NCBI GenBank assembly: GCA_021372945.1
Contig: JAJFTK010000019.1
Location: 24,698 to 88,697 of the forward strand
From: Planctomycetaceae bacterium
GTDB lineage: Bacteria > Planctomycetota > Phycisphaerae > Sedimentisphaerales > Anaerohalosphaeraceae
Length of the DNA: 64,000 nucleotides
Direction: 5' to 3'
In this document: positions 29,290 through 54,794 of the stretch, piece by piece
Numbering within the stretch: position 1 is the first letter of the stretch
Layout: each line of letters begins with the position of its first letter
Translations under genes and position numbers: made by a program
Notes under the pieces: model-generated
The model's database searches: none
Told to the model about the DNA's origin: nothing
The model's input: the letters and a program-made list of their open reading frames with translations, nothing else

Positions 29290-29352
29290 CCCCCTTAATT
29301 CATTATTTCATTAGGCGCAGCAGGAATCCGGCGCCAATAGGTTTCTCAAAAA

Positions 29353-31560
29353 TCATTTTTCCTGTCGCGGATCGGTATTATTGAGGTACTCTTCCAGGTT
29401 GGTGTAACCGTCTTTGTCAAGATCGGCCGCACCATCCGCCGGATCGGCGGAATCAAATCCGTATTGGGTCTCCCATGCATTTGGCATGCCATCGCCATCC
29501 GTATCCCAGTCGGCCGCGCGATGGATCTCGGGATAATCTTCCCAGCCTCCGACATCCGCCTGCGAATCAGGCAATCCGGCAAAACCCGATTTACTGCCCG
29601 TGCAGGACGTTTTTCCGCCACGCACTTCCTGAATCACACGTTTATCATGGTCATCGAGCGCCGGCAGATTGCAGCCAACGTCGGCCAGTACATTCTCAAA
29701 GGCCTCTTTGGCGGCATGCGTATGGACATAGGGCTCAAAGAAAAGCTGAGCAACCATGACGGGAGCCGGCTGGCTGCCCTGAACCTTGACGCCCTTGAAC
29801 GGGCCAGCCGGCCCTTCCGGCCCGGCTACGCCTTCCAGGATATTGCCTTCGACATAATACTGCTGCGGACCAAAGGCGGGGTTTTCAAACTGCGGGTTAA
29901 GATACGTCATCTTTTGCGATGCCGGGCCGGGCTTGTAGTAATTGCCGACAAAATTGACCTGCCTGGCGCCGCCATCCGTGGTGCGATTCCTCCAGTTATA
30001 GACCACATTGTTGCGGATATCCAGCCGTCCTGCGTGCCGGTTGGCCTGATCGACCCCGCCGGCCAGGGACCAGTTGCGCCCGGAGTTGTGCGCCAGCAGG
30101 TTATGGTGAAAGCTGCCGATATCGCCGCTGATCGATCCTGCGTAGCCGTGCGCCGTTCCCTCGCTGTAGTGCGAATGGCCTGCCACATTGAGCGCTTCGG
30201 CGATCAAATTGCGTTGGAAGGTGATATTCTTAGCGCCGCGCGAACTGAACGCCTCGTCGATAGTCCATGAAATCGAACAATGGTCAATGATGCAATGATC
30301 GCTGCCGGCCAGGCCCATCCCATCCATCGTCACACCCGCCAAATCGCCCAGCCGCAGCCGAACATATCGAACGATCGTATCGCGAGCACCCATGCCGCCG
30401 AACGTATAATTGCGGATGCAGATGCCTTTGCCGGGCGCCGTCTGTCCGGCGATCGTCAAAAACTCGTTGCCCTGTCCGAAGCCGAGTTTGGATTTCAAGG
30501 TGATAAGCCCGGATACATCGAAGACGATGGTGCGCGGTCCCGCAGCTTCGACCGCCTCACGCAGGGAACCGGGGCCGGAATCGTTCAGATTCGTGACATG
30601 CAAGACGCGTCCGCCGCGACCGCCCAGAGCGAAACGGCCATACCCTTGGGCCGCTGGAAACGCAAGATGGTGAACACGAAAACGCCAGACATCGCCGCGC
30701 GTGACATTGCCCTGGGCATCCATCGAATCGACACGCCAGGCATAGTGCAAAAGCGAATTGTTGGGCTCGATCGAAGCCGCATAAGAATAATCGGTCACGG
30801 AAGCGGTTTCCTTTGCAGCCGCCAGTTTACGTACGGCACTCAAAGCATCATTATCGGATGTTACATACACGCGGTGGCTGACCGCCGACTTTGCCGGCGT
30901 CCAGCTCAGTATTACTTTTCCGCTGTCGCCATCCGCATGGCGTTCGAAGTCCGCCGGCGCAGGCTTGAGCGCCTTTCTGCTCGGATCCGAAACATCGAAC
31001 GCAAAACCGTTGAGCACCACGCTGCTGCCTTCGGTCGCGGCGATGCGAACGATCACCGATTCGCCCCGTTTGGTCTCGAACGCAAGGAAAGAAGTTCCAA
31101 TTTCATCATTATGGCCGGCCTTTGCGGACGGTTTAACTCCTTCAACCCGGCGATCGCCTATAACAACCGCATAGGTTCCGCCGGAGCCCTGAAAGGTGTG
31201 GTGATAGCCGACAAACGTATGCGGTCCTTCAGAAAGTCCATCCAGTTGAACTTCCAGAATCGCCGGTGTCCCGCCGGTAACGACGGCTCCATCGGCGCCG
31301 ATAGTAAGGCCGTCAACGAGGAGCGATTTGTTGCCGGCCAGGCCCAGTGAGCCGCCTTCGCCGGCGCGTAACGTGACCGTCACGCCATCAAAGGATCGGC
31401 TCATTGCATCAGCCGAAGGCTGCCAGTTTTCCCAGCCGATGGTACGCATGTCGGCGCGGGCATCGGCGTTGATATCCACACGCAAGGGCAGCTCATTGGC
31501 CCGGGCCGCCATCCACAAGGAGATCGTTGTTATCGCCAGAAACCGCAGCGCGTTTGTCAT
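29353..31560 (-). CDS. Secreted pectate lyase (PL1-like) with calcium-binding tail
   Basis: A 735-residue exported protein. A signal peptide (about 1-22) is followed by a beta-sandwich-like region to about residue 170, which could bind carbohydrate, and a fibronectin-type-III-like segment (about 200-295). A PL1-type beta-helix starts at GYGRFALGGRGG with VTNLNDSGPGSLREAV and the repeats AGQTAPGKGI, GSDHCIIDHCSISW and RNVVYNW. The last 45 residues contain DTDGDGMPN and DLDKDGYTN, calcium-binding loops as in thrombospondin-3 or dockerin-like tails. It would cleave polygalacturonate outside the cell. AAAGGAT precedes ATG. Last gene of the operon; 34 bases after the paralogue at 31595-33145. Confidence 0.88.
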   Translation of the reverse strand: MTNALRFLAITTISLWMAARANELPLRVDINADARADMRTIGWENWQPSADAMSRSFDGVTVTLRAGEGGSLGLAGNKSLLVDGLTIGADGAVVTGGTPAILEVQLDGLSEGPHTFVGYHHTFQGSGGTYAVVIGDRRVEGVKPSAKAGHNDEIGTSFLAFETKRGESVIVRIAATEGSSVVLNGFAFDVSDPSRKALKPAPADFERHADGDSGKVILSWTPAKSAVSHRVYVTSDNDALSAVRKLAAAKETASVTDYSYAASIEPNNSLLHYAWRVDSMDAQGNVTRGDVWRFRVHHLAFPAAQGYGRFALGGRGGRVLHVTNLNDSGPGSLREAVEAAGPRTIVFDVSGLITLKSKLGFGQGNEFLTIAGQTAPGKGICIRNYTFGGMGARDTIVRYVRLRLGDLAGVTMDGMGLAGSDHCIIDHCSISWTIDEAFSSRGAKNITFQRNLIAEALNVAGHSHYSEGTAHGYAGSISGDIGSFHHNLLAHNSGRNWSLAGGVDQANRHAGRLDIRNNVVYNWRNRTTDGGARQVNFVGNYYKPGPASQKMTYLNPQFENPAFGPQQYYVEGNILEGVAGPEGPAGPFKGVKVQGSQPAPVMVAQLFFEPYVHTHAAKEAFENVLADVGCNLPALDDHDKRVIQEVRGGKTSCTGSKSGFAGLPDSQADVGGWEDYPEIHRAADWDTDGDGMPNAWETQYGFDSADPADGAADLDKDGYTNLEEYLNNTDPRQEK

Positions 31561-31594
31561 CGCAATCCTTTCTTTTCTGCTGATCAGTATGCGG

Positions 31595-33145
31595 TCAACT
31601 GATCGTATCTACATTGTTGCCAAAGTTGGTGTAATCCACATTTTGGCCGGGGTTGGTTCCATTGAGAAACTCTTCAATATTGGTATAACCGTCCTGGTCG
31701 GCGTCCCGGCTCGCATCGGCGGCAGAGGCAGGATCCAAACCATACTGGCTTTCCCACTTGTCGGGCATGCCGTCCTGGTCTGTGTCAGCCGGGACCTGGT
31801 CGGGCGAAAAGGTGTATTGCGGATAGCCGCCGACCTGGTTGGGGTCGCTGATGATACCGTTGCCCGTAGTCACCTGGCCGGTGCGCACCATCTCGATAAC
31901 CCGCTTGTCCACCGCGTCTCGGCGCGGAAGCGTCGCCCCGGACTTGTCCAGCACCTGGTTGAAAGCCTGCATCGCCGTTTGCTGATTGACCGGCCACCCT
32001 TCAAACGGGGTATAGACCCGGGCCATCTCGACCGTGCCGTCGCCCTCCTGCAGTTTCATGCCCTTCCAATTGTCGGCGGTGACTTCCGGGAAGCCTTCGA
32101 CAATGTTGCCTGCCGCGTACCACTTGCCGGGTCGTGTCGCCGTCTTTGGGTACCAGTTGCCTTCCTTGAAGGCGCCCTTCGGCGAGTTCTGGCTGCGTTG
32201 TTCAATGCGGGCGATGGTGCTCAGCATGTTGGCGTTGGTCGCCGGGCCGGGCTTATAGTAGTTGTTGATCACGTTGACCAGCGACGTCTCATCGCCGCCG
32301 TCCATCGTGCGGTGCGCCCAGTTAAAGATCACGTTGTTGCGGTAATCGAACTCGCCGCTCATGCCGATCGAGGGATTGCGGCCCGTATTGCAGGCGAACA
32401 GGTTATGATGGAACGTCGCATCCTGCCCGCCCCAGGTGCCGCCGAACTCGTGGCCCGGCTTCATGCCCTCGCTCGAGATGCAATACTGGATCGTGAGGTT
32501 GCTGACGGGGTTCTTGACAGCGACCATCTTTCCGCTAACCGGATCCTGCCGCTGCTCCATGAACCGATAGAGCGACAGGTTCTCGTCACGCCCCCAACTG
32601 GTGCTGCAGTGATCGACGATGACCTGACCGCGAGGATTGCCGCCGATATTGTCCGAACCCTGGCCGCCGGAAATGATCCCGCGGCGCACACGCAGATGAC
32701 GCAGAATCACATTCTGCGTGTTGATATCCAGGGAGCCGCCGGCGATGCAGATGCCGTCGCCCGGCGCGGACTGGCCGGCGATCGTGATGTCGGGGTTATT
32801 GATGCTCAGATTTGAATCGAGTTGAATGATGCCTGCCGCCCGAAATACCACGATACGGGCGCCTCGCTCGTCAATGGCGGCACGCAGGCTGCCCGGGCCG
32901 CTGTTGTTAAGGTTCGTTACGGCGATCACCTTGCCGCCGCGTCCGCCGGTGGCGAACATGCCGCCGCCCCAGGCGCCGGGAAACGCGGGAATGCCAAGCG
33001 GCATCACAAACGGCATGGGCGGGGCCATGGCGGGTTCAGGTTCCACGATCTTGGCCGAGGAATCCGCAAAACTCAGGGCCGCGGCCAGACACAGACCGAT
33101 CAATGCAACTTTGACAGACGATTTCAGCGTGCCATCTCTTTTCAT
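31595..33145 (-). CDS. Secreted pectate lyase (PL1-like), paralogue
   Basis: A 516-residue exported protein of the same family as the gene downstream, without the N-terminal accessory domains. A signal peptide (KVALIGLCLAAALSFADS) is followed by a short Pro/Met-rich stretch and the beta-helix start GGRGGKVIAVTNLNNSGPGS, IAGQSAPGDGICI, VDHCSTSWG. The tail has DTDQDGMPD and DADQDGYTN calcium loops near the C-terminus. The open frame extends upstream to 33367 but the extra residues overlap the neighbouring gene and precede the signal peptide; ATG 33145 with GGAG eight bases upstream is the start. Gap to the sialidase-like gene upstream is 40 bases, so co-transcription is likely. Confidence 0.9.
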   Translation of the reverse strand: MKRDGTLKSSVKVALIGLCLAAALSFADSSAKIVEPEPAMAPPMPFVMPLGIPAFPGAWGGGMFATGGRGGKVIAVTNLNNSGPGSLRAAIDERGARIVVFRAAGIIQLDSNLSINNPDITIAGQSAPGDGICIAGGSLDINTQNVILRHLRVRRGIISGGQGSDNIGGNPRGQVIVDHCSTSWGRDENLSLYRFMEQRQDPVSGKMVAVKNPVSNLTIQYCISSEGMKPGHEFGGTWGGQDATFHHNLFACNTGRNPSIGMSGEFDYRNNVIFNWAHRTMDGGDETSLVNVINNYYKPGPATNANMLSTIARIEQRSQNSPKGAFKEGNWYPKTATRPGKWYAAGNIVEGFPEVTADNWKGMKLQEGDGTVEMARVYTPFEGWPVNQQTAMQAFNQVLDKSGATLPRRDAVDKRVIEMVRTGQVTTGNGIISDPNQVGGYPQYTFSPDQVPADTDQDGMPDKWESQYGLDPASAADASRDADQDGYTNIEEFLNGTNPGQNVDYTNFGNNVDTIS

Positions 33146-33185
33146 TTTTGACTCCGGATTAGGACCTGCAAGGAATTCCATTTCG

Positions 33186-34448
33186 TTATTCTTTTTTGGT
33201 ATCGGCATCGGACGCTTTTTGACAAGCCGCAAACGCGGCCAGCGAGACAGGGCCTTCGGCAGGCCAGCGGCCATCGGGCATGGGTACGCTCTCCAGGCGG
33301 GCAGGATCCAACACGACGTGCTTGATGCGTTGGCGGTGCCACGTATAGACGATATGCACCAGCCCATCGCGCGACTGGATCACGGCCGGATAGGAAAACT
33401 GTTTGCCGGGTGCGTCGGTATAGTCGAGCATGAGGGCCGCGTCCCAGCGAGCGCCGTCGCGGCTCAGGGCCGCGTTCAGTATGCCGCGTCCCTTGTCGCC
33501 CATCCCGGCTTGCGTACGCGTGGAGTGGTTATATACCAGCAATTGCCGTCCATCGCGGAGTGTGACGCCGTCCAAGCCGGAATTGTTATTTGGCAGTGAG
33601 GAACGTTCCAGTTCGGACCACGTGAGACCGCCGTCGCTCGACCAGCTCTGAGCGATAGAACCGTGCTCGCTTCGCGTTCGGCAGAGCATCTGGATGCGCC
33701 CGTCCGAATAGGTCAGCAGCGCAGGCTGAATAGCGCCAATCCTCGCCCCGGACTCGAGCGGGCCGATCAATTGCCAGGTCTTGCCTTCGTCCATGCTGCG
33801 TTCCAGGTGGACGCGCCATCCGTCGTTCTCTGTGCTTGAGCCCGACAGGATGATTCCTTCCGCGGTCTGGATCGGCTTGTTTTTGACCGGACCGATGAGC
33901 CCATCACCCAACCGGCGCGCTTCGCTCCAGGTGCAGCCGCCGTCATTGGATGTTTTGATCATGCCCCACCATTGACTGGGGCTGGGACCCACTTTGTAAA
34001 ACAGCATGATATTACCGCCGCGAGCTTGGAAGAGCACGGGGTTCCAGGTCGGCAGCCGTTGGCCGGCGGACTGTACGCCGTCGGCGACGCTTACGGGCGA
34101 TGTCCATTTGCCGCCGACCGCCTTACGCGAAAGCCGGATCTCGACATCCGGATCACGTTCGGCGGTGCCGCCGAAGAACGCGCACAGCAGATCGCCCGTC
34201 GGAAGTTCCAGAATCGTCGAGGCATGACACGATGGAAACGAAGCGGTTTCGTAAATAAACTCCTCCATCACCAAACCGGGCCGGGGCTGCGGTTGGGACA
34301 CTGCCGGCGAGGCCAAGAGGGCTAAGACGATAAAAGTAAGACAATGTGCCGGAACAAAAGATCGGCGACCTTCAGCGACTCGTTCTCTCCGGTGATGACG
34401 TAATCGTTCACTCAAAGTTCGCTCTCGCTCGCGTGGAGACAAACGCAC
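33186..34448 (-). CDS. Secreted sialidase-fold (BNR repeat) glycosidase-like protein
   Basis: Up to 420 residues. An N-terminal export signal (LTFIVLALLASPAVS) leads to a six-bladed propeller with at least three Asp boxes (SNDGGCTW, SMDEGKTW, SSDGGLTW) and FFGGTAERDPDVEIRLSR near the N-terminus. The family covers sialidases (GH33) and many BNR enzymes of other specificity. In the pectin-rich context the target may be an acidic ulosonic sugar of rhamnogalacturonan II (Dha or Kdo), as described for a Bacteroides GH33, instead of sialic acid; this is inference. Start is uncertain: GTG 34448 overlaps the kinase gene by 41 bases, while TTG 34415 would overlap it by 8. Confidence 0.72.
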   Translation of the reverse strand: MRLSPRERERTLSERLRHHRRERVAEGRRSFVPAHCLTFIVLALLASPAVSQPQPRPGLVMEEFIYETASFPSCHASTILELPTGDLLCAFFGGTAERDPDVEIRLSRKAVGGKWTSPVSVADGVQSAGQRLPTWNPVLFQARGGNIMLFYKVGPSPSQWWGMIKTSNDGGCTWSEARRLGDGLIGPVKNKPIQTAEGIILSGSSTENDGWRVHLERSMDEGKTWQLIGPLESGARIGAIQPALLTYSDGRIQMLCRTRSEHGSIAQSWSSDGGLTWSELERSSLPNNNSGLDGVTLRDGRQLLVYNHSTRTQAGMGDKGRGILNAALSRDGARWDAALMLDYTDAPGKQFSYPAVIQSRDGLVHIVYTWHRQRIKHVVLDPARLESVPMPDGRWPAEGPVSLAAFAACQKASDADTKKE

Positions 34449-35979
34449 TTGGCTTTTGCAGTATTTTCGGAGTCTTACCGGGCGCGGTCAGCCGCTGAAT
34501 TTCTCTCCGCCAGCCCTCGTAATTTGTCTGAATATCCTGAAGATTCCTGCCGATGGCCGAGTATCTGACCTCGTCCAAGGCATTTTTGGGCAACTGGTCC
34601 AAGCCTTTGAAAATGCCCGCCTGCAATCCGGCCAGGCAGGCAGCGCCATAAGCGGACACTTCCGAGAAGCCCATATTAATGATCTCTCGCTGCAGCAGAT
34701 CCGCCATGAACTGCATGATGAAACTGTTCTTGCTGATGCCTCCATCGGCATGCAGCCGTTTCAGGGGGATCTCGCTGCAATCCTCCATCACGGCGATCAC
34801 ATCCTTGATCTGAAAAGGAATGGATTCCAATGCCGCTCTTACGACGTGGCTCTTATCGCAGCCCAGGGTCAGCCCCGCGATGACCGCCCTTGCATCCATG
34901 TTCCAATGGGGAGCCCCCAGCCCGCTGAACGCCGGAACCAGGTACACGCCGCCGTTGTTCGGAACGCAGCAGGCGATCGCCTCACATTCGTCGGCATTCT
35001 TAAATAGTCCAAGATTGTCCCTGAGCCAATTGATCGTTGAGCCGCAGGACACGATGATCCCTTCCAGCGCATAATCCACACGATCGGCCGTGCTCCAGCA
35101 AATTGTGCTCATCATTCCATTGGCCGCAGGGACCCGCTTGCCTCCGGTGTTCAGCAGGATTGAGCATCCCGTACCCAGGGTCGCCTTGGCCGTTCCCGGC
35201 GCAAAACAGCCTTCTCCAAACGCGGCCGCGTGCGAATCCCCGATCATGGCACCAATACGGATCGGACGCGGCAGCAAGCCTGCGAAATCCGAACTGCCAA
35301 ACTCAGAAGAAGATGCTCGCACCTGGGGCAATCGAAGTCCGGAAAGCTGAAACTGCTCCAGCAGGTAGTCGTCCCAGGTCAAATGATCCAGATTAAAAAA
35401 CAGCGTGCGGCACGCATTGGTATAGTCGGTGCAATAACTTTGACCTGCGGTCAGCTTATAAAGCAGCCAGGTGTCGATCGTTCCGAAAAACACATCTCCT
35501 TCTTCAATCGCCGCCCTGAGCCTGCGATCCTGTTCATAGAGCCAGATCAATTTCGTGGCTGAAAAATACGGATCGGCGATCAACCCCGTGCGCCATTTGA
35601 TCTGCTGCTCGAGAGCGGAGTTCTGAAGTCGGCTGCAGATATCCACAGACCGCTTGCACTGCCAGACGATGGCCGGACCGAGAGGGGTGCCGGAGGCATC
35701 CCACAGGCAGAATGTCTCCCTCTGGTTGGATATCCCGCAAACCGAAATTTGGCTTAAATCGGGTGATCGCTTTTCTTGAAACTCATTCAGACACGCCTTG
35801 ACCGCACACAGAACATTCCGATAGATCTCCAGAGGATCTTGTTCGACAAAACCGGGGCGGGGATAATGGGAGGCCAGGGGCTCAGTCCCCATGGCGGCGA
35901 TACGGCCTTGCGTATCAAATACGACAGCCTTGGTGGCGCTGGTGCCCTGATCAATGGCTAAAATATAGTTGTTCTTCAC
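34408..35979 (-). CDS. FGGY-family carbohydrate kinase (glycerol kinase/pentulokinase-like)
   Basis: A 523-residue kinase of the actin-like ATPase fold. The N-terminus has the phosphate-1 loop IDQGTSATKAVVFD. GISNQRETF with PLGPAIVWQCKRS resembles glycerol and pentulose kinases. The FGGY signature 2 region is DGGISKNSFIMQFMADLL. It transfers the gamma phosphate of ATP to a polyol or ketose. It overlaps the transketolase subunit upstream by 4 bases and is in an operon with a sugar isomerase, so its substrate is probably the ketose made by that isomerase (a pentulose or apulose, for example), with transketolase as the next step. Overall similarity by eye is closest to glycerol kinase, so that alternative stays open. 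Confidence 0.85.
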   Translation of the reverse strand: MKNNYILAIDQGTSATKAVVFDTQGRIAAMGTEPLASHYPRPGFVEQDPLEIYRNVLCAVKACLNEFQEKRSPDLSQISVCGISNQRETFCLWDASGTPLGPAIVWQCKRSVDICSRLQNSALEQQIKWRTGLIADPYFSATKLIWLYEQDRRLRAAIEEGDVFFGTIDTWLLYKLTAGQSYCTDYTNACRTLFFNLDHLTWDDYLLEQFQLSGLRLPQVRASSSEFGSSDFAGLLPRPIRIGAMIGDSHAAAFGEGCFAPGTAKATLGTGCSILLNTGGKRVPAANGMMSTICWSTADRVDYALEGIIVSCGSTINWLRDNLGLFKNADECEAIACCVPNNGGVYLVPAFSGLGAPHWNMDARAVIAGLTLGCDKSHVVRAALESIPFQIKDVIAVMEDCSEIPLKRLHADGGISKNSFIMQFMADLLQREIINMGFSEVSAYGAACLAGLQAGIFKGLDQLPKNALDEVRYSAIGRNLQDIQTNYEGWRREIQRLTAPGKTPKILQKPSAFVSTRARANFE

Positions 35980-36941
35980 GATCGTTTCCTATTGAGCATC
36001 GACTTGGCGGTGCGGGCCAGACCTTCCGGCGAAATGCCATAGTATGCCATGATTTCAAGCTGCGTTCCCGTTACCGTTTCTTCATCGGGAAAACCCACGA
36101 TCTTAAAAGGCACAGAGATCCCGGCTTGCAGGAGCACAGAGGCACATGCCTCGCCCAGGCCGCCGGCGCAACTATGTTCTTCCACTGTCACAACGGCCTT
36201 GCAGTCCCGCGCTGCCTGCAGAACAGCCTGGTCATCCAACGGCTTGATCGTATGCATGCTGAGCACGCGGGCCGTGATGCCTTCACGTTCCAGCGCCTGA
36301 GCAGCCATGAGGGCATGAATGACGGTTTCACCTGTCGCGATAAAGGCAATACCGCATCCATCGCGCACGAGCAGGGCTTGGCCGACCAGGAATCGGGCGC
36401 CTGGTTTGTGCAGGTCCGGCATGGCTCGCTTGCCGAAACGAATGAAGACGGGATGGCTCATCGCGGCGGCCGCCTTCACGGATTCGGCCGTTTCGAAATT
36501 ATCCGCCGGGACGATAATCGTGCAATTGTGGATCGCCCGCATGACGGCCAGGTCGTGCAGGGAGTGGTGCGTCGAACCCAACGCACCGTAACTGACGCCC
36601 GAACTGATCGCGATCAGCTTGACGGGGCGATCGGAATAGCAGATGTCATTCTTGATCTGCTCCAGCGCCCGAGCCGTCAAAAAGCTTCCGGGCGATACCG
36701 CAAAGACGATCTTGCCGGCGGAGGCCAGGCCCGCCGCCACGCCAACCAGGTTTTGTTCGGCAATTCCCACTTCAACGATCTGCTCGGGAAGCGCCTTGGC
36801 AAAATTAGCCAGTTTGGCCGAGCCGCGCGAATCGCTCGTAACGGCCAGCACGTTTTTATCCGCTTTGGCAAGTTCCAGCAGCGTTTCCGAAAACACATCC
36901 AGGTTAGCCCTGCCCGTCTGAACCGCAGAATCCGCGCTCAT
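35976..36941 (-). CDS. Transketolase, C-terminal (pyrimidine-binding) subunit
   Basis: A 321-residue protein corresponding to the pyrimidine-binding and C-terminal halves of transketolase. It has VEVGIAEQN at about 57-65, where the Glu (E62) activates thiamine diphosphate, then a region with SSGVSYGALGSTHHS. It works as a heteromer with the N-terminal subunit next door, with which it overlaps by 4 bases (36938-36941), and overlaps the kinase by 4 bases too. Split transketolases are common in sugar operons; here the partner genes point to a ketose phosphate from the pectin-derived sugar. Confidence 0.92.
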   Translation of the reverse strand: MSADSAVQTGRANLDVFSETLLELAKADKNVLAVTSDSRGSAKLANFAKALPEQIVEVGIAEQNLVGVAAGLASAGKIVFAVSPGSFLTARALEQIKNDICYSDRPVKLIAISSGVSYGALGSTHHSLHDLAVMRAIHNCTIIVPADNFETAESVKAAAAMSHPVFIRFGKRAMPDLHKPGARFLVGQALLVRDGCGIAFIATGETVIHALMAAQALEREGITARVLSMHTIKPLDDQAVLQAARDCKAVVTVEEHSCAGGLGEACASVLLQAGISVPFKIVGFPDEETVTGTQLEIMAYYGISPEGLARTAKSMLNRKRS

Positions 36942-37768
36942 ACAAGCACCTCCTGCAGGCGAGACTTGAGCTGCGAAATGGCCAGCGTGAATTGTTCATC
37001 CGTGGGCACGCCGTGGTGCCATTTGGCGATATTCTCCATGAACTGCACGCCCTTGCCCTTGACGGTATTAGCGATCACCATGCTGGGCTTGCCCTGCGTA
37101 AACGGCGTCGAACACAAGACACTCTTAAGCGCGGTCACATCATGGCCATCCACGCTGCGTACCGACCAGCCGAAGGCGGTAAATTTATCGTACAAGCTTT
37201 CCAATGCACAGATATCTTCCGTGCGCCCGCTTATCTGCAACTGGTTGCGGTCGACAATCGCCGTTAAATTATCGAGCCGATAATGCGCGGCGGTCAGCAT
37301 CGATTCCCAATTGGAGCCTTCGGCCAATTCGCCGTCGCCCAATAATGTGAAAACGCCGTAACTTCGGCCGTCCATCTTGCCCGCTAACGCCGCTCCCACG
37401 CTGAATGCCAGGCCGTGTCCCAGGGCGCCTGTGTTCTGCTCGATCCCCTTGATCTTTCGCGTGGGATGACCCACATAGGGCGACTTGAACCGGCAAAGCG
37501 TCTCCAGGTCCGACTCCGGGAAAAACCCCCTGTCGGCCAGAACGACATACAAAGCCTCGACCGAGTGCCCCTTGCTCTGCACGTAGCGGTCGCGGTCGGG
37601 ATCGTCGGCAGTCTGCGGCGAGATATTCAAAATGCGATTATAAAGAACGTTTAAGATATCCACACAGGACAGGCTTCCGCCCGTGTGACCGGCGTTGGCT
37701 TTCTTGATATACCCAAGCAGCCGGATCCGGTACTCGATAGACTTCATTATTAAAGCGGTGTCGGTCAT
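36938..37768 (-). CDS. Transketolase, N-terminal (thiamine diphosphate-binding) subunit
   Basis: A 276-residue protein holding the diphosphate-binding half of transketolase. It has AGHTGGSLS, the SKGHSVEALY segment, and GDGELAEGSNWES followed by Asn/Gln (VDRNQLQ), which is the GDGx(n)N metal/ThDP motif. I place the start at ATG 37768, 17 bases after the stop of the apiosidase-like gene; GTG 37789 overlaps that stop. It forms the enzyme with the next gene, with which it overlaps by 4 bases. A second such pair is found at 59096-60870. Confidence 0.92.
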   Translation of the reverse strand: MTDTALIMKSIEYRIRLLGYIKKANAGHTGGSLSCVDILNVLYNRILNISPQTADDPDRDRYVQSKGHSVEALYVVLADRGFFPESDLETLCRFKSPYVGHPTRKIKGIEQNTGALGHGLAFSVGAALAGKMDGRSYGVFTLLGDGELAEGSNWESMLTAAHYRLDNLTAIVDRNQLQISGRTEDICALESLYDKFTAFGWSVRSVDGHDVTALKSVLCSTPFTQGKPSMVIANTVKGKGVQFMENIAKWHHGVPTDEQFTLAISQLKSRLQEVLV

Positions 37769-37785
37769 TGTATAATCCCAAAATA

Positions 37786-39396
37786 TCACTCTGCGATCCG
37801 CCGGATCCGCAAGGCGATATAAGGTTTGCCGGGCAGCGGCACGCGGCGTCCATCCTTGTCGGCAAAAGCATAATCGTCGCGTTTCTTCGTTTCAAACACG
37901 CCCTTAACCGGAGTGATCGTCATATCCCAGGTGTCGATCACCTCGACGCTGAATTTCATGCCATCCTTGATCTGTGCTTTATGGAGTTCAAATGGCCATT
38001 CCGTGAGACTCTGGCGTCCAAAGTATGCCAGATAGTACTCGCCTCGTTTACCGGCAAAGGGATAATCTTGCCATTTGTCGATGGGCTCCAGTCCCTCGGC
38101 GGGGCCTTCCTCCATGATCTTCCGCAAAAAGGCAATCCGCGCTGGACTGTTCCCGTGCAGCACTCCCCCTTTGGACCACCAGATCACATCACTGGGGTCC
38201 AGATACGTCTCGCCGTGGCCCACATACGTTCCGGCGATCGTTCCCTCCCAAAAGCGCAGGACCATCTCCTGATCGCTGATGTTGCCCCATCGCTGCGGGA
38301 TGTTGCCTTCGTATTTGACTTCATCGAACACGATCGGCTTAAGATAAACATCGCGATATAGAACCGCACGGCCGTAATCTTCAACGGCCGAACCATTCTG
38401 AATGCTGGCGTGCGTCACCCACGGCTGCGTATGGTTGTACAGGAGCGTACCATTGTGGATGGAACGCAAGCGTCCATAAGGGTCTTCGCTCTGCACGATC
38501 TGGAAGAAGCGGTCCCAGTCCGCCGGCGTTTTCTCTTTCATAAAATCGTATTCATTGGCAAGTGACCACCACACGTTGCGAAACGTCGCAAACCGCGCGA
38601 TCACATACCGCAAGTAACGATCGTCATTGGCCGCACTCATGCGATCAAAGCCCCAATGCCCCTTGTCATAGGGATGAAAGAGAATCACGTCCGCCTCGAT
38701 TCCAAGCTCGCCGAGCTGCTGAATGCGTCTTTCGAAATGTCGGAAGAACTCGGGATTCAACCGCGTAAAATCCCACGATGACGGCGGCGTTCCTTCAAAG
38801 GGATAAAGTTGGGGCTCGTTTTTATTATAAGTATATGATTTTGGAAAAACGCAGAAGCGAATCTTGTTGAACGGCGATTGAGAGAGAGTTTTTAATGTCT
38901 GCTCTTGAAGTTTTTCATCCTGGTGCGTCCAGGCATAGCATGTTGTCCCGATCGGGCGATACGGCGTACCGTCGGCATAAGCGAAATGGAACGTATGCGC
39001 AACCTTAACAGGCCCATGATTGCTCTTGGCCGGTGCGACAGCCGTCAATGAGCCGGTTCTTCCCGATAGCGCCAAACAGTTCGACTTGGTTTCATACGTC
39101 CACTGTCCCTGCGTCTGAGGACTAAAACGGACGCGATAGATGCCGTTGCCGTCGTAAAAGCCCCTGACCGGTACGCTTTGATCGTTTTGCGTAAACACCG
39201 CCGTAAACTCAACGTCAACGAAAGGATTGCCGCCAGCAGGCCCTTCAAAGGCTTGTTCGAAAATGCCCCACTGTTCGACGTTGGCGATCTCGGCCGGCGC
39301 AGAAAACCCAACGGCGCAAAGCGTAAGGACGACAAACCGCAATCCGGCGACTGAACGGGCTGTGGAATTGCGGGTTTGTTTCAACATGCAAATCAT
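37786..39396 (-). CDS. Secreted apiosidase-like glycosidase (DUF5060 / DUF4038 / DUF5605)
   Basis: A 536-residue exported enzyme-like protein. After a signal peptide (LRFVVLTLCAVGFSAPAE) come a beta-sandwich starting EQWGIFEQAFEGPAGGNPF (DUF5060-type, to about 125), a TIM barrel (about 145-440) and a C-terminal beta-domain (DUF5605-type). The barrel holds two clan-A-like glutamates: SLANEYDFM (acid/base candidate) and IVFDEVKYEG (nucleophile candidate). The DUF4038 barrel family includes GH140 apiosidase from Bacteroides, which acts on rhamnogalacturonan II. It lies between the isomerase and the transketolase genes, so release of a sugar and its catabolism are joined in one operon. The paralogue is at 42043-43611. 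Exact substrate is not provable from sequence. Confidence 0.8.
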   Translation of the reverse strand: MICMLKQTRNSTARSVAGLRFVVLTLCAVGFSAPAEIANVEQWGIFEQAFEGPAGGNPFVDVEFTAVFTQNDQSVPVRGFYDGNGIYRVRFSPQTQGQWTYETKSNCLALSGRTGSLTAVAPAKSNHGPVKVAHTFHFAYADGTPYRPIGTTCYAWTHQDEKLQEQTLKTLSQSPFNKIRFCVFPKSYTYNKNEPQLYPFEGTPPSSWDFTRLNPEFFRHFERRIQQLGELGIEADVILFHPYDKGHWGFDRMSAANDDRYLRYVIARFATFRNVWWSLANEYDFMKEKTPADWDRFFQIVQSEDPYGRLRSIHNGTLLYNHTQPWVTHASIQNGSAVEDYGRAVLYRDVYLKPIVFDEVKYEGNIPQRWGNISDQEMVLRFWEGTIAGTYVGHGETYLDPSDVIWWSKGGVLHGNSPARIAFLRKIMEEGPAEGLEPIDKWQDYPFAGKRGEYYLAYFGRQSLTEWPFELHKAQIKDGMKFSVEVIDTWDMTITPVKGVFETKKRDDYAFADKDGRRVPLPGKPYIALRIRRIAE

Positions 39397-39411
39397 CTGA
39401 TCTGTCAGCGT

Positions 39412-40836
39412 CTATTTATGGTAATAAAGTTTCCAGCCCAGGTACTTTGTAATCGCTTCATTCAGCACCTCGGCACATTGCCCCCGCGTCATGGCGACAT
39501 GATGCTCAAAGCCGTTTCGGCAGACATGGCCAAGCAGTTGCCTCAGGTCATTCACCTGGCAGACGGCGATGCCACCGTCCATCCCAAAGGCGTCGTCTGT
39601 AAATTCTCCCTGTCCCAGGTACGACTTAATTGCGCCTTGCGTGTCATCCGTGGACACTCTAAAGAAGGTCATGGGTCCGGCGGCAACCTTGCCTTTAATC
39701 ACGCCAAAACACTTATCGCGATCGATCACGGTTCCCAGAACATCCAGCTTTGAAATCTCCACTTCATTTCCCATGAAACTCTTTGGATAATTGCTGCAAT
39801 GCGTACAGACACACTTATTCGTGTGCTTTCCGAAATTGTTGTTCCAATCCAGCAGCGCCGGAACCGTGCCCCCCGCCAGCAGCAGCGCATACATCGAGAT
39901 GGCTCCAGTCACGTCGGTTTCGCAAGCGCTGGGCAGGTAACGCTCGCCCATCATCGACATCGGCAGGCAGGTTGCGCATCCATAGTTGTTTTCGATGGAG
40001 TCCCAGCATTGAACAGCGCTGGCGTCCAGCTCATACTCGTCCATCAATTTGTCAAAAACGACCGACAGTTTAGCCTGCCGCAGCATGCTGGCGGCGGAAA
40101 TATCCTTGGGGATTCGGCCGTATGCTCTGATCTGCGCCAGTTTATCTTTCACGGCCTCCTCATGGTCCTGCACCGATTGGGCCCGGGCAATGATCTCGGA
40201 CAAGTCCAATGGAACAACCGTAATGCCCGATGCCTGGAGCAGTTTTTCACTGAATCGAACGGTTTGGAACTTTGCCGGCCGTGTGCCGAACGCTCCGATC
40301 CTTGCGTTTTTGAGTCCCTTGACGGTGCGGCACAGGGCGGCAAAATTCTCAACATCCTGCGCAAACACTTTGCTGTCGATATCACAGGTGTGCTCGGTCG
40401 TATCAGAAAACGGGATGCCATACTGGTAGAGGTTATTGCAGACGGAAATCTTGCCGCAGAAGGCGTCTCGCCTGCTTTTTACATCAAGCTTATCCATCTC
40501 GTCATTGCATGCCTGCACGAGCACCGGCACGCCGAGCCTGGCCATATCCAGCGTTGCCGCGACTCCCTGCTCATCGCCGAAATTCGGCAAGATAACGATC
40601 ACTCCGTCGATGTGATCGCGGTTCTTCTTGAACAGTTCGACGCAGATTTTTATGTCGGCCCTGGTCTCGATCGCTCCGGCGGCGGTGGCATTCGCATCCG
40701 GTATAACATAGCCCAATCCCAGCCGGTCCAGCAGCGCGGTTATTTTTTTTCGTTCCGCCGACGCCAGTTTCGCATTAAAAATATTTCGTGTTCCAATGAT
40801 CAGCCCAAAGGTAATTTTCTTTTGTATAATTCTCAT
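39412..40836 (-). CDS. L-fucose/L-arabinose isomerase-fold sugar isomerase
   Basis: A 474-residue enzyme with the overall layout of the FucI/AraA superfamily. The N-terminal half is Rossmann-like (IIGTRNIFNAK, VVILPNFGDEQG). The central domain has VQCWDSIENNYGCATC. The C-terminal barrel contains TDVTGAISMYALLLAGG and an HH pair (GFEHHVAMTRG), which in this family helps bind the metal or substrate. It is also Cys-rich (CVCTHCSNYP). It would convert an aldose to the ketose that the FGGY kinase phosphorylates. It is the first gene of the leftward operon and faces the divergent AraC regulator. Specificity cannot be read from sequence; a fucose isomerase proper is about 590 residues. Confidence 0.82.
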   Translation of the reverse strand: MRIIQKKITFGLIIGTRNIFNAKLASAERKKITALLDRLGLGYVIPDANATAAGAIETRADIKICVELFKKNRDHIDGVIVILPNFGDEQGVAATLDMARLGVPVLVQACNDEMDKLDVKSRRDAFCGKISVCNNLYQYGIPFSDTTEHTCDIDSKVFAQDVENFAALCRTVKGLKNARIGAFGTRPAKFQTVRFSEKLLQASGITVVPLDLSEIIARAQSVQDHEEAVKDKLAQIRAYGRIPKDISAASMLRQAKLSVVFDKLMDEYELDASAVQCWDSIENNYGCATCLPMSMMGERYLPSACETDVTGAISMYALLLAGGTVPALLDWNNNFGKHTNKCVCTHCSNYPKSFMGNEVEISKLDVLGTVIDRDKCFGVIKGKVAAGPMTFFRVSTDDTQGAIKSYLGQGEFTDDAFGMDGGIAVCQVNDLRQLLGHVCRNGFEHHVAMTRGQCAEVLNEAITKYLGWKLYYHK

Positions 40837-40923
40837 ATTCAGCCTTTAACGAACGCTGCGTCCAACGAGCAATTGCTGCGGAACTGTTAAAAGCGGCAAC
40901 CGCAGCAAGACGCCGCTTAACGA

Positions 40924-41013
40924 TTAACTGCATTTTTGGCGAACCTCCAGCCGCGAGAATCTGTTCACCATTACCATAATCTCGATTAGTGCAAACCGCT
41001 TCTTTTTTGCCAT
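40924..41013 (-). pseudogene. Possible remnant of a pseudopilin N-terminus
   Basis: A 29-codon frame begins MAKKKRFALIEIMVMV, close to the start of prepilins (KKRGFTLIELLVVI), with the Glu at +5 kept but Arg instead of Gly at -1. The hydrophobic helix then breaks and a stop follows. The 290-base interval 40837-41128 otherwise holds the promoter of the AraC gene and presumably that of the isomerase operon. Confidence 0.3.
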
Positions 41014-41090
41014 TTCCAGATACTGGCAGGTGATCCATTTCCGGCGGCTTTGAACTTTTATCATACAAAAAAGAAATAAAGAACTCCTCC

Positions 41091-41119
41091 TTGATTCCCA
41101 AATAAACTTGCCATATACT
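41091..41119 (+). promoter_or_regulatory. Sigma-70-like promoter of the AraC regulator
   Basis: TTGATT (41091-41096), a 17-base spacer and TATACT (41114-41119), close to consensus. The -10 ends only 9 bases before the GTG at 41129, so the transcript would be leaderless or nearly so if that start is used. Confidence 0.6.
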
Positions 41120-41128
41120 TAGATCTCG

Positions 41129-42001: not shown

Positions 42002-42042
42002 CCGCCGACGCTTCGATAACGACCGTTTGACGACTGATTTAT

Positions 42043-43611
42043 CTAGTCGCTAAGTTGCAGACGCAATGCCATATAGGGCCTTTGCGGCAGTGTTATTTTG
42101 GAGCCGTCCTTATCCGCGAACGTGTACGCATTCAACTGCTTTATTTCAAACACTTTTTCGACCGGTTCAATTTGCATGTTCCATGTATCGATCAGTTCCG
42201 CCTTGAAACGCATCCCCTCCTTCAGATTCTTCTTCGGCAGGCGAAACTCCCACGCATCGATCGGTTCGCGGCCAAGATAGATCAAATAGTACTTCGGCGC
42301 CTGGCCGCCAATATTGTTTTCAAAATGCTGATCGATCGGGTCGATCCCCTCCTGCGGTCCGGATTCTAGAATCTTTCGCAGAAACGCGATCCGCGCGGGG
42401 CTTTGCCCCTGCAGCCTGCCGCCGATGGAGATCCACGTCGGGTCTTCCGAGGGGCCAAAACAATCACCGTGGGTGGCATAGGCCCCGCCGATATAAGCGG
42501 ACCAAAACCGAAACACCATCTCTTCGCCCGAGATGTTGCCCCAGCGTCTTTCGATATTGCCCTCATAATTGATCTCATCATGGATGATGGGCTTCTGGTA
42601 CATATCCCGCAGCATCGGAGAAATACCCAGGCATCGCACGGCCATGTAGTATTGCAGACTGACATGCGTGACCCAGGGTTTGTTGTAATCGTAAATGCGG
42701 TCGGCATTGTGGATCGACCGCAGATGGGCGTATGGGTCGCGCTGCTGCACGATTTGAAAGAGGCGGTCCCAGTCGGCGTCCGTCAAATGCTTCATGAAGC
42801 TGTTCTCATTGGCCAGGCTCCACCAGACGTTGCGATAAGCGCCGAAGCGGGCGATCACATAGCGCAGATACCGCTCATTCGTCGCCGCGTCCATCCGGTC
42901 AAATCCCCACTTGCCGTCATCGTAAGGATGGAAGATGATCAGATCCGCTTCCACACCCAGGTCACGGACCTGCGCTACGCACCATTCAAGCTGCCGAAAG
43001 TATGCCGGATCGAACCGCGAAAAATCCCAGTTATCTTTTGAGCTGCCGACGAATGGAAAGCGTTCCAGTTTGCCCGGCCCGGTCACGTAATGTTCCTTGT
43101 ACGGAGGGATCAGCAGAAAGCGGGCCTTGTTAAAAGGCGACTGCTTGAGCGTCTCAAGCGTCTGTTTCTTTAAGCTCTCTGTTTGAAACGGCCACTCGTA
43201 AATGGTTGTGCCGAAAGGAAAGTACGGCGTGCCATCGGCGTAGGCAAAATGGTATTGGTTACGCACCCGCACCGGTCCGCGGCTGCCCGCCTTTGGCGCC
43301 GTGCAGATAAACTGTCCCTCTTTGCCGCTGAGTTCCGGGCGGCTGCTTTTTGTTTTGTAGGTCCACGTGCCCTGCGCGTCCGGCATGAAGCGGATCTTGA
43401 ACACGCCATCGCCGTCGTAGAAACCCTCCGGCTCAAATTGCCTGCCGGCGTTTTCAAAGACCGCGCTGAATTCAATACCAATGAACGGATTGCCTGCCGC
43501 CGGCCCTTGCAGCGTCAGTTCAAAGATGCCCCATTGTTCCACGTTGTTGGGCTCTGCCGCATACAGGCAGCCTGCCAGCGTGATCCACAGCAATATGCTT
43601 GCTTTCCTCAT
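42043..43611 (-). CDS. Secreted apiosidase-like glycosidase, paralogue (DUF5060 / DUF4038 / DUF5605)
   Basis: A 522-residue exported protein, collinear with the one at 37786-39396. Signal peptide (ILLWITLAGCLYAAEP), beta-sandwich starting EQWGIFELTLQGPAAGNPF, TIM barrel with SLANENSFM and IIHDEINYEG (candidate acid/base and nucleophile Glu), and DUF5605-like tail (AYTFADKDGS). ATG 43611 has AAAGGA upstream; the frame is open back to 43683 but the extra residues are not signal-like. It ends the permease-GH78-GH2-GH127 operon. Two such genes on either side of the regulator suggest different linkages of the same sugar or a duplication with specialisation. Confidence 0.8.
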   Translation of the reverse strand: MRKASILLWITLAGCLYAAEPNNVEQWGIFELTLQGPAAGNPFIGIEFSAVFENAGRQFEPEGFYDGDGVFKIRFMPDAQGTWTYKTKSSRPELSGKEGQFICTAPKAGSRGPVRVRNQYHFAYADGTPYFPFGTTIYEWPFQTESLKKQTLETLKQSPFNKARFLLIPPYKEHYVTGPGKLERFPFVGSSKDNWDFSRFDPAYFRQLEWCVAQVRDLGVEADLIIFHPYDDGKWGFDRMDAATNERYLRYVIARFGAYRNVWWSLANENSFMKHLTDADWDRLFQIVQQRDPYAHLRSIHNADRIYDYNKPWVTHVSLQYYMAVRCLGISPMLRDMYQKPIIHDEINYEGNIERRWGNISGEEMVFRFWSAYIGGAYATHGDCFGPSEDPTWISIGGRLQGQSPARIAFLRKILESGPQEGIDPIDQHFENNIGGQAPKYYLIYLGREPIDAWEFRLPKKNLKEGMRFKAELIDTWNMQIEPVEKVFEIKQLNAYTFADKDGSKITLPQRPYMALRLQLSD

Positions 43612-43660
43612 TGTGCTTTCCTTTAGGAGTATCCAGTTCTTATCGAGTTCCACTGCGCCT

Positions 43661-51721
<8,061 letters not shown>

Positions 51722-51741
51722 GTTTGATACCGCCGGATGGC

Positions 51742-51927
51742 TTATAAATCGTCTTTTCTGACCCAGAAGATGGCGCTGCCAAACCACATCAGCATCCCTG
51801 CCGTCATCAGATGCAGATAGATTTGCTTGGACAATACCCCGCCAAAAAACAGGAACGCCGGGACGACGGACAACACCAGGCCTGCAAAAGAAATAGCTTT
51901 CAACGTATTTCTTGCTTGTGAGGTCAT
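51742..51927 (-). CDS. Small two-helix membrane protein
   Basis: A 61-residue protein with two hydrophobic segments (about 12-28 and 36-56) and a charged C-terminal tail (VRKDDL). It starts within the ATGA overlap of the permease stop, so it is co-translated with the NCS1 transporter and may be its accessory subunit. I do not recognise a family; a short membrane partner coupled to a transporter is an inference. Confidence 0.6.
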   Translation of the reverse strand: MTSQARNTLKAISFAGLVLSVVPAFLFFGGVLSKQIYLHLMTAGMLMWFGSAIFWVRKDDL

Positions 51928-53450
51928 TTTGATTGCTCCCGGGCGATTGGATTAAACCATTGTTGGATCAAGCTGCACACCGTATATAGAACTACCGCGA
52001 TCAGCCAGGCAGGTAAGACCTGCAGAAACAGATCCGCTTTGTAGTTGGCAAGAAACGACGGCAGTCCGCTGTTGATCCATGCCATGGATGCATACTGGTC
52101 CTTGGCATACAGAAGAAAACAAATCCCGAACGAACCGAACCATCCCACCGCCGCGGGCCAACTGAGCAGCAGCCCCCGCCGCTGGGCATAGTTGCGGGCA
52201 AGACCCAGCCGCGGGAAGAGCCAAAAATCGATAAAGATAAACGCCCCCAGCGGCATGAAGAACAGACCGTAATAGGCGACGATGCGATCCAGGTAATGCA
52301 GGACGGCGGGAATACACGCCGTAACGACCATTAAGATACCCGCCACGAGCGTCATCACCCAGCGGCTCCAATTGGGAGTAGCAATCTGAAACGCCAGTCC
52401 CGCTCGGTACAGCGTGGGATTGGCGGTGGTCCAGCCGGCCAGCAGCACGCAGACAATACCGGCAAAACCGGCTCCAAACATCGCGATGTTTCCGGGCGTT
52501 GGGTTGGGGTCGGCCACGCCTGCGGCGGTCTGCGTGTAAACAAACGCCGCGCACAGGATCCCGGAGCAAATCCAGGCAACATAGTGTCCCAGGAACATTC
52601 CAAACGCCGAGCAAACGCCCATCTGCCATTTTCTGGCGTATCGAAAGATCGTCACGTCCCCCATGCCCATGTGCTGGGCAATATTACACAGCCAGGCCAG
52701 TCCCGCGCAATGCCAGAAGCCATAGTGCATCTGGCCCGCTCGGGGGATCCCCGTCCAGATCTTCTCATTGGCGATCTGCCAGAAATTATCCAGCCCCGTT
52801 ACGCCCAGAGAGGGCAGCGAGGCAACCGCACCGGCCACGAACACGAATGGCATCCACGGCCCTACGACCTTGGCAAAATGAGCCATCCTTTCGAAGCCCA
52901 ATACGGCGATTACACCGATAACCGTTCCGACGCCGACGGCAATCACGATCCAGGGGATACTGGGCACGGTCTGCCCGACGGCATAGTTGGGGCTGTCAAT
53001 ACCCATCGGTAAAGTGACCGCCGTTGTGGAAACATTGACCATGGAGCCGGCCATGAGGCACAAGATCAATGCAAATAAACCAGAGTACAGCACTGTCAAA
53101 TAAGGCCCGGCGATCTTGCGGATCTGCCAGTAGATCGTCAATCGCTCTTTCACGGCGATCGGCGCACACATAAACGTCCAGCTCAGCACGGCCAGCAGGT
53201 TGCCCACGGCCAGCCCCCCAAAGACATCCGCCGCCGTCACGCCATGCATCACCAATAGTGTCCCGATGACGAATTCCGTGCCGGCGATGTGCTCGCCCAG
53301 AAACATCGCAATAAAGGTACGCCATCCGTACAGCTTGCTTTCGTTTACGGGTTCACGGTCATATTCGTAGAGCTTATCGAGCCGTTCGACCAGTGTTAAC
53401 CCGGCTCCTGCATTCCTCTCTAGCACCGCTGATTCGGTTTTCGTACTCAT
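51924..53450 (-). CDS. NCS1-type (purine-cytosine permease-like) transporter
   Basis: A 508-residue transporter with about 12 transmembrane segments and the N-terminal pattern FLGEHIAGTEFVIGTLL, typical of the nucleobase:cation symporter-1 family, with AGLAWLCNIAQHMGMGD and AGWTTANPTLYRAGLA further on. The family normally moves nucleobases, vitamins or hydantoins. Its place at the head of a GH78-GH2-GH127 operon, with AGGGAGG right before ATG 53450, suggests that this branch may carry a sugar or other plant-derived product; that is inference. The frame is open up to 53468, but the ribosome site favours 53450. Confidence 0.85.
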   Translation of the reverse strand: MSTKTESAVLERNAGAGLTLVERLDKLYEYDREPVNESKLYGWRTFIAMFLGEHIAGTEFVIGTLLVMHGVTAADVFGGLAVGNLLAVLSWTFMCAPIAVKERLTIYWQIRKIAGPYLTVLYSGLFALILCLMAGSMVNVSTTAVTLPMGIDSPNYAVGQTVPSIPWIVIAVGVGTVIGVIAVLGFERMAHFAKVVGPWMPFVFVAGAVASLPSLGVTGLDNFWQIANEKIWTGIPRAGQMHYGFWHCAGLAWLCNIAQHMGMGDVTIFRYARKWQMGVCSAFGMFLGHYVAWICSGILCAAFVYTQTAAGVADPNPTPGNIAMFGAGFAGIVCVLLAGWTTANPTLYRAGLAFQIATPNWSRWVMTLVAGILMVVTACIPAVLHYLDRIVAYYGLFFMPLGAFIFIDFWLFPRLGLARNYAQRRGLLLSWPAAVGWFGSFGICFLLYAKDQYASMAWINSGLPSFLANYKADLFLQVLPAWLIAVVLYTVCSLIQQWFNPIAREQSK

Positions 53451-53546
53451 AAACCTCCCTGCATGCATGCGGATTGGGATTATGCCGTTTTCATAATCCA
53501 GTTTGGAGCATTTGTCAATACAAGTTCATAGCCCCTGAAACGGCCC

Positions 53547-54745: not shown

Positions 54746-54794
54746 TTGACGATCCCCTCTGATTGGCAATGTCTTTCTAAATGGCCTGACAACC

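Follow-up and report, generated by a model that had tools for sequence, protein, structure and literature searches.

A probable rhamnogalacturonan II locus in a Phycisphaerae planctomycete for the release and catabolism of D-apiose

Introduction

The non-oxidative pathway of D-apiose catabolism, which involves an isomerase (ApsI), a two-subunit transketolase (AptAB) and a kinase (AplK), is already known and widespread. In the excerpt of PMC13001218 used here, strains carrying the cluster of Escherichia coli SE15 with aplK, aptA and aptB grew on D-apiose, and the Pectobacterium cluster is described as including apsI, in place of which the Escherichia cluster has two oxidoreductases. As to the source of the sugar, chains A and B of rhamnogalacturonan II (RG-II) are both attached via apiose linked to rhamnose (Rha) according to an excerpt of PMC12282258; in PMC7939467, BT1012 of Bacteroides thetaiotaomicron cuts the bond between apiose (Api) and galacturonate (GalA), and BT1001 cuts Rha-Api last. 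Here we analyse a locus in a 64,000-nucleotide stretch of DNA, hereafter the window, located on contig C145 (GenBank JAJFTK010000019.1) of a Planctomycetaceae bacterium of the class Phycisphaerae (genome of 3.58 Mb in 146 contigs); what is new here is the RG-II operon in Phycisphaerae.

Results

The locus is organised around a gene for an AraC-family regulator (AraC) on the forward strand, which lies between two leftward runs of genes and is divergent from the first gene of run 1 (Table 1). Run 1 encodes, in this order, an isomerase (Iso), an apiosidase-like protein (Api1), the N- and C-subunits of a split transketolase (TKn and TKc), a kinase of the FGGY family (Kin), a sialidase-fold protein (BNR) and two lyase-like proteins (PelB and PelA), followed by a hairpin terminator. 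Run 2 encodes a permease, a 61-aa membrane protein, glycoside hydrolases (GH) of the types GH78, GH2 and GH127, and a second apiosidase-like protein (Api2). An earlier note, made from the nucleotide sequence alone, had proposed that these genes free apiose from RG-II and burn it to xylulose 5-phosphate and dihydroxyacetone phosphate (DHAP). All the genes that it named are open at the positions given in Table 1, with the AraC gene flanked by two leftward operons, and its proposal is supported by the phylogenetic trees, the aceric acid hydrolase and the GH138-type protein described below. On this evidence, the locus is probably an RG-II utilisation locus that would both release D-apiose and catabolise it.

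Automatic models identify Kin as a glycerol kinase: it passes the GlpK model NF000756 (535.3 bits, cut-off 498), falls below the cut-off of TIGR01311 (527.6 bits against 590.35) and scores 437 bits against E. coli GlpK chains. The phylogenetic trees place it elsewhere. In a 34-row tree, the 28 kinases encoded in clusters of this catabolic module ("module kinases"), including E. coli AplK, are split from six GlpK sequences with 100/99 support and in 100% of bootstrap trees, so that Kin falls outside the six GlpK; the clustering with glycerol kinases that the earlier note had named as a refutation was not observed. A 73-row tree recovers GlpK as one group (95/99) but does not bring the module kinases together, placing them jointly on one side of a split in 16% of the bootstrap replicates. 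Excluded from the kinase set were open reading frames (ORFs) below 400 aa, four duplicate loci and kinases sharing less than 40% identity with the references; the outgroup consisted of five remote FGGY rows.

The glycerol pocket differs as well. Although Kin resembles GlpK in overall sequence, retaining the NQRE motif, the Trp and the Asp of the E. coli enzyme, GDSH replaces GDQQ and GTGCS replaces GTGCF. In an alignment of 62 module kinases with 6 GlpK (the kinases of L157 and L158 in this set come from clusters in which no isomerase is annotated), the positions of Gln246 and Phe270, presumably residues of the glycerol pocket of GlpK, are both Ser in 62/62 module kinases, compared with Q and F in 6/6 GlpK; R83, E84, W103 and D245 are kept in all 62, and Tyr135 in 32. 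Both motifs, GDSH and GTGCS, are also present in E. coli AplK; AplK is reportedly an apulose kinase (Carter 2018). D-apulose is glycerol with the C2 hydrogen replaced by a glycoloyl group, and the opened pocket fits such a substrate. The window's own genome contains no other match to Kin at E≤1e-30. The possibility that Kin is a housekeeping glycerol kinase was rejected on account of the trees, the two pocket serines and the absence of a second match in the genome; Kin is a candidate apulose kinase.

A different order of the two final steps deserves consideration, namely that the transketolase acts on free apulose, yielding xylulose 5-phosphate and dihydroxyacetone, which Kin then phosphorylates, with the same net result. 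GlpK enzymes accept dihydroxyacetone, and the lack of another Kin match in the genome is compatible with this order, which we nevertheless consider very unlikely: the replacement of Phe270 and Gln246 in all 62 module kinases would be unexpected for a kinase of a three-carbon substrate, and in the cited excerpt of PMC13001218 AplK is the kinase of the pathway.

The transketolase points the same way as the kinase. In a 35-row tree, TKn/TKc and E. coli AptAB share a 31-row fork (81/92, not starred), and TKn/TKc are split from a second type of transketolase encoded in the window (TKn2-TKc2, see below) with 100/100 support. Several comparisons weigh against assigning both enzymes to the apiose pathway. 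The identity of Kin to E. coli AplK (36%) is moderate, as are those of TKn and TKc to AptA and AptB (Table 1). AplK scores higher against the GlpK of Thermus (348 bits) and Enterococcus (339 bits) than against Kin (325 bits), that is, raw scores separate AplK from GlpK less well than the trees do, and AptA prefers TKn to TKn2 by a small margin only (226 versus 217 bits). As a separate observation, loci L058 and L059 encode isomerases 71-73% identical to that of the window and kinases of the same clade, and their transketolases fall with the enterobacterial AptAB subtype, which suggests an exchange of the transketolase pair inside the module.

Iso is 45% identical to the isomerase of apiose-type operons of Klebsiella, Rahnella and Sodalis. 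A scan of named genomes detected at least 586 encoded relatives, of which the best 80 were kept as loci; E306, D330 and H346 of Iso are identical in 81/81 aligned rows. Genes for the kinase, TKn and TKc all lie beside the isomerase gene in 49 of the 80 loci, and in 48 of the 67 loci that span at least 10 kb. The enterobacterial plasmid operons with the same isomerase family encode kinases, TKn and TKc that are, respectively, 70-72%, 78-79% and 73-77% identical to those of E. coli SE15. The binding protein of the Klebsiella operon matches 5ibq (E 3e-134), a structure that we take to hold apiose, and 4ry0 (E 8e-134), which is RHE_PF00037 of Rhizobium etli; the R. etli gene, whose product is 73.5% identical to the Klebsiella protein, belongs to an operon that includes an annotated OiaX, 3-oxo-isoapionate-4-phosphate decarboxylase. 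Binding proteins at least 55% identical to that of Klebsiella are encoded in 15 of the 80 loci (the one of E. coli SE15 shows 44%). In Paludibacter (L100), a protein that matches 3kzs/5msy (E 6e-246; 5msy is presumably BT1012, a GH140 enzyme) and 8t9w, "Apiosidase" (E 2e-87), is encoded 4.3 kb from the isomerase. By association, Iso is a candidate D-apiose isomerase.

The isomerase family as a whole is less uniform, which counts against this assignment. At the thresholds used, 16 of the 67 loci of at least 10 kb contain none of the kinase, TKn and TKc genes, and ten loci from the window's own phylum (L034-L043, isomerase identity 35-48%) have no transketolase match and a single kinase match at 24%, so that some members of the family may act on other sugars. 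One of these loci (L034, genome G055) encodes a protein with PF13204, DUF5060 and Collagen_bind_2 domains 25 bases from a 48% identical isomerase, with no kinase or transketolase nearby. It is conceivable that the cluster burns another pectin sugar, such as L-fucose, L-arabinose or D-arabinose, with a glycerol or triose kinase and apiosidase-like proteins that are other glycosidases. In its favour, Pfam recognises no domain in Iso other than Fucose_iso_C, NCBIfam matches Iso to sulfoquinovose isomerase alone (93 bits, cut-off 700), Kin passes a GlpK model, and the sequences of Api1 and Api2 lie outside GH140. We regard this alternative as quite unlikely given the grouping of the kinase and transketolase with AplK/AptAB, the altered glycerol pocket, and the presence, in other phyla, of a binding protein or a GH140-type protein near the isomerase.

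Several other loci deserve mention. In Listeria (L055:5296-13086), the order is isomerase, two transketolase subunits, a kinase annotated as glycerol kinase, a phosphotransferase system (PTS) and a DUF4038 protein, which reads as an apioside-use operon. Clusters of Caballeronia (L157), Agrobacterium (L158) and E. coli SE15 (L197) contain AplK/AptAB-type genes, a transporter and SDR dehydrogenases, with no isomerase annotated. L033 (genome G197) combines a 56% identical isomerase and a binding protein 62% identical to that of Klebsiella with a transketolase pair of the second type, a GntR regulator and a Beta_elim_lyase protein. Planctomycetes are not alone in this coupling, since Listeria, Monoglobus and Paludibacter also have gene sets for both release and catabolism. 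The open-licence literature yielded nothing on apulose, on RG-II apiose in Planctomycetes or on apiose catabolism in Listeria, although absence there proves little.

The earlier note had called Api1 and Api2 apiosidase-like and remarked that DUF4038 includes GH140 apiosidase. Both exceed the PF13204 cut-off (67 and 59.7 bits, cut-off 26.5), but membership in GH140 was ruled out by sequence, and they are retained as distant homologues. A profile built from 11 Api sequences matches 4n0r (E 2e-191); among the PDB matches up to E 10, there was no GH140 chain (3kzs/5msy, 4qfu and 8t9w, which we take to be the GH140 structures), and the only other matches were two chance sucrose hydrolase sequences. 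In a profile-profile comparison with five PF13204 rows (GH140 type and kin), the probability was 98.2%, with 20% identity over 333 columns; E282 and E359 of Api1, invariant in 11/11 sequences, pair with an Asp and a Glu, respectively, which are presumably the catalytic residues of the GH140-type rows.

Another line of evidence on Api function comes from genomic association with the isomerase. Api1 and Api2 are the only two PF13204 proteins of the window's own genome. The Api1 type occurs in 4 of 294 genomes of the phylum, every one of them an isomerase carrier from the window's family; beside the isomerase, it is found in 6 of the 80 loci and in Monoglobus, covering Planctomycetota, Pseudomonadota, Bacteroidota and Bacillota. 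In the 49 isomerase genomes that gave 50 of the 80 loci, 25 encode a PF13204 protein; 10 of the 44 matches over the cut-off lie inside isomerase loci, compared with 0.17 expected under random placement, a generous null given that sugar genes cluster anyway. In the order of genome G340, the Api1 type was found in 1 of 292 genomes, G340 only, whereas a PF13204 protein is encoded by 3 of the 16 isomerase-bearing genomes assigned by title to the Rhodobacterales (Fisher p 1e-4). The searches behind these two counts are not alike (profile versus protein at E≤1e-60), and kinship is uncorrected in this comparison. Taken together, these data make it probable that the 4N0R family, to which Api1 and Api2 belong, represents another family of apiosidases.

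The polymer is very likely RG-II, as judged from the neighbouring hydrolases. The GH127 protein passes the NCBIfam model of aceric acid hydrolase, NF049879 (956.9 bits, cut-off 950). Across 288 genomes of the phylum, only four score above 930 bits, G000 alone being over the cut-off, and the next one scores 743; the same four have the GH138-type and the Api1-type proteins. At E≤1e-60, the GH138 type is likewise confined to 4 of the 288 genomes, all among the 22 with the isomerase. The GH138-type protein of the window is 75% identical to an 891-aa protein encoded next to AraC in genome G157 (locus L032), which matches BPa0997 (6hzf, E 4e-228), taken here to be a GH138 enzyme; against NF049878, the window protein scores 1043.5 bits, below the cut-off of 1300, so it is assigned to GH138, the chain A galacturonidases, by family resemblance. 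GH141-like and GH95 genes are found near the loci of relatives, and the GH141-like gene of the window's own genome lies on another contig. Small apiosides or apiogalacturonan appear a highly improbable source of the apiose: in Listeria, a beta-glucoside PTS and a DUF4038 protein accompany the module, and the window has lyase-like genes, which would suit such a source, but the aceric acid hydrolase model is passed, a GH138-type protein is present in the window, and GH141-like, GH95 and GH138-type genes are neighbours in relatives. RG-II also fits the placement of GH78, which in the window, G157, G261, G209 and L057 lies beside the permease and has no hydrophobic N-terminus (as judged from a hydropathy window). 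This suggests that Rha-Api is imported; two apiosidase-like proteins with GH78 beside a permease fit the order of BT1012 and BT1001, with the last step moved into the cell.

Comparison with relatives indicates how the two runs are connected. In G261 and G209, which belong to the window's family, AraC is followed, on the opposite strand, by a unidirectional run of Iso, Api1, TKn, TKc, Kin, permease, GH78, GH2, GH127 and Api2, the proteins being 64-85% identical to their counterparts in the window or in G157. Given this uninterrupted arrangement of all ten genes after a divergent AraC in G261 and G209, the two operons of the window look like one operon rearranged. L057 (Planctomycetota UR.bin58) has the same order from AraC through GH78, where the contig ends, and L058 has PelA, PelB and AraC in one direction and Iso, TKn, TKc and Kin in the other. 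The L058 relatives of PelB (79.6%, next to AraC and Iso) and PelA (71%) imply that the lyases are part of the neighbourhood. AraC is divergent from Iso also in G157, G261, G209, L057 and L058, and the permease adjoins the kinase in G157, G261, G209 and L057.

Further observations count against the proposed scheme, and the single regulon put forward in the earlier note is not supported by the upstream sequences of the window. In G157, the run lacks Api1, which is located on a different contig. No 9-mer is common to the regions upstream of Iso and the permease, nor is any 9-mer present in at least four of the six Iso-AraC intergenic regions compared; the idea of a shared AraC operator was dropped. 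A TTGACA-type promoter 5' of the permease appears conserved in G157 on visual comparison alone; the promoter scan did not list it.

Table 1. Features of the locus in window coordinates
Feature	Coordinates	Strand	Basis or remark
Intrinsic terminator, 3' of PelA	29246..29302	-	hairpin fold, z -4.34
PelA, PelZ-like lyase candidate	29353..31560	-	NF041900 below cut-off
PelB, PelZ-like lyase candidate	31595..33367	-	PF00544 below cut-off; NF041900 below cut-off
BNR, sialidase-fold protein	33186..34448	-	BNR_2 PF13088, 284 bits; hydrophobic N-terminus
Kin, apulose kinase candidate (AplK-like, glycerol kinase family)	34408..35979	-	FGGY; pocket residues; trees
TKc, putative apulose-4-phosphate transketolase C-subunit (AptB-like)	35976..36941	-	Pfam; 40% to E. 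coli AptB; tree
TKn, putative apulose-4-phosphate transketolase N-subunit (AptA-like)	36938..37789	-	Pfam; 45% to E. coli AptA; tree
Api1, exported apiosidase candidate (4N0R family)	37786..39396	-	DUF5060 + PF13204 + DUF5605; hydrophobic N-terminus
Iso, D-apiose isomerase candidate (ApsI-like)	39412..40836	-	Pfam PF02952 Fucose_iso_C
AraC-family regulator	41129..42001	+	Pfam; divergent from Iso
Api2, second apiosidase candidate, probable lipoprotein	42043..43683	-	DUF5060 + PF13204 + DUF5605; lipobox LAGC
GH127 aceric acid hydrolase	43661..45667	-	NF049879; best PDB match 5mqo, E 3e-217
GH2 LacZ-type beta-galactosidase, probable lipoprotein	45660..48977	-	NF052611 1026.2 bits, cut-off 999
GH78 alpha-L-rhamnosidase	48974..51787	-	expected domains; no hydrophobic N-terminus
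61-aa membrane protein	51742..51927	-	ORF
Permease, candidate importer of Rha-Api or apiose	51924..53468	-	no family match
Class I/II aminotransferase	56042-57283		near second transketolase pair
SBF symporter	57280-58452		near second transketolase pair
Asp/Glu-racemase-family protein	58449-59240		near second transketolase pair
Second split transketolase pair TKn2-TKc2	59096-60046, 60043-60870		between apiose operon and GH138
GH138-type alpha-galacturonidase	61104..63758	+	75% to L032 protein

The remaining genes of the locus are less readily classified. The two pectate lyases named in the earlier note are open reading frames, but their identity as such is weak: PelB scores 23.4 bits against PF00544 (cut-off 24) and 127.9 bits against PelZ NF041900 (cut-off 840), and PelA has no PF00544 match and 102.6 bits against NF041900 (same cut-off). 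The true start of PelB is probably inside its ORF, and that of Api2 is probably at 43611. The BNR protein has weak PDB matches only (E 0.006). The terminator that had been proposed past the last lyase folds strongly, at -26.5 kcal/mol, with 0/200 shuffles equally good; a scan of the PelA strand for short-loop terminators listed none. The permease matched nothing in Pfam up to E 10 or in NCBIfam up to E 1, which counts against the proposed scheme. The locus extends at least to the end of the GH138-type gene, which the earlier note had missed, close to the contig end. On the other side, a beta-keto acid cleavage enzyme (BKACE, 28217-29059) lies between glycan-synthesis genes and the pectin operon. 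Adjoining the permease operon, there are genes for two uroporphyrinogen-decarboxylase-family proteins (53651-56029), conceivably corrinoid-linked methyltransferases that act on the O-methyl sugars of RG-II; Paludibacter (L093) has a pair with 57% identity in the vicinity of its isomerase module.

The second transketolase pair is accompanied by genes for a racemase-family protein, an SBF symporter and an aminotransferase. The pair, the racemase-family protein and the symporter have relatives directly beside Api2 in G209 (69-82% identity) and near PelA in L058 (45-83%); TKn2 was not found in G157 at E≤1e-85, although GH127 is present there. TKn2 occurs in 16 of 199 genomes of the phylum, three of which (G000, G041 and G197) are among the 21 with the isomerase, a weak link. 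A role of this pair in the apiose route was ruled out by its 100/100 split from TKn/TKc. A more elaborate scheme appears unlikely. It would divide the RG-II locus (29353-63758) between two split-transketolase routes running in parallel, one for apiose with apiosidases of a new, non-GH140 family and the other for aceric acid (57280-60870). By chemical reasoning, the ketose of aceric acid would be a beta-keto acid that the racemase-family protein, as an arylmalonate-decarboxylase-like member, could decarboxylate to a 5-deoxypentulose, which the transketolase might split into xylulose 5-phosphate and lactaldehyde.

Discussion

The gene complement suggests the following course of apiose utilisation. 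Exported Api1 and Api2 would cut apiose from galacturonate, perhaps one acting on chain A and the other on chain B; the freed Rha-alpha-1,3-Api would be taken in by the adjacent permease and split by cytosolic GH78 into rhamnose and apiose. The FucI-like isomerase would then convert apiose to apulose, the kinase, in which Ser249 and Ser273, at the positions of Gln246 and Phe270, would make room for the glycoloyl group, would produce apulose 4-phosphate, and the two-subunit transketolase would yield xylulose 5-phosphate and DHAP. If so, apiose release from RG-II and catabolism are tied together in one Planctomycetota operon, and 4N0R, a structural-genomics orphan, acquires a role that can be tested, that of a further apiosidase family. 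Furthermore, proteins that automatic models call "glycerol kinase" next to split transketolases are suggested to be apulose kinases, marked by the two pocket serines, and the locus indicates where one might look for an aceric acid pathway.

Compared with D-apiose degradation I (PWY-8089; ApsI, AplK, AptA and AptB of Pectobacterium), the window shares the AplK/AptAB-type kinase and split transketolase, next to which it has a candidate isomerase; it differs in that no ribose-type ABC transporter is seen, an unclassified permease being present instead, and in that glycosidases belong to the same run. The regulator of the window is of the AraC family, whereas those of the enterobacterial and E. 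coli apiose clusters are annotated "sugar-binding transcriptional regulator". With the RG-II system of B. thetaiotaomicron, in which BT1003 and BT0997 are presumably the GH127 and GH138 enzymes, the locus has in common the aceric acid hydrolase, the GH138 type, a rhamnosidase (BT1001 in that system) and apiosidase-like proteins (BT1012 in that system; PMC7939467). Unlike in that system, the apiosidase-like proteins of the window are not GH140-like, GH78 has no signal peptide, and apiose catabolism is encoded in the same run. Api1 and Api2 have the DUF5060-PF13204-DUF5605 architecture of the 4N0R family ("putative glycoside hydrolase", a PDB molecule name with no activity attached). The same coupling of release and catabolism characterises the clusters of Listeria monocytogenes and Monoglobus pectinilyticus, with the order isomerase, two transketolase subunits, "glycerol kinase" and DUF4038/DUF5060 protein; in these, however, the isomerase is only 26% identical, the transporters are different, and GH127 and GH138 are not annotated in the stretches fetched.

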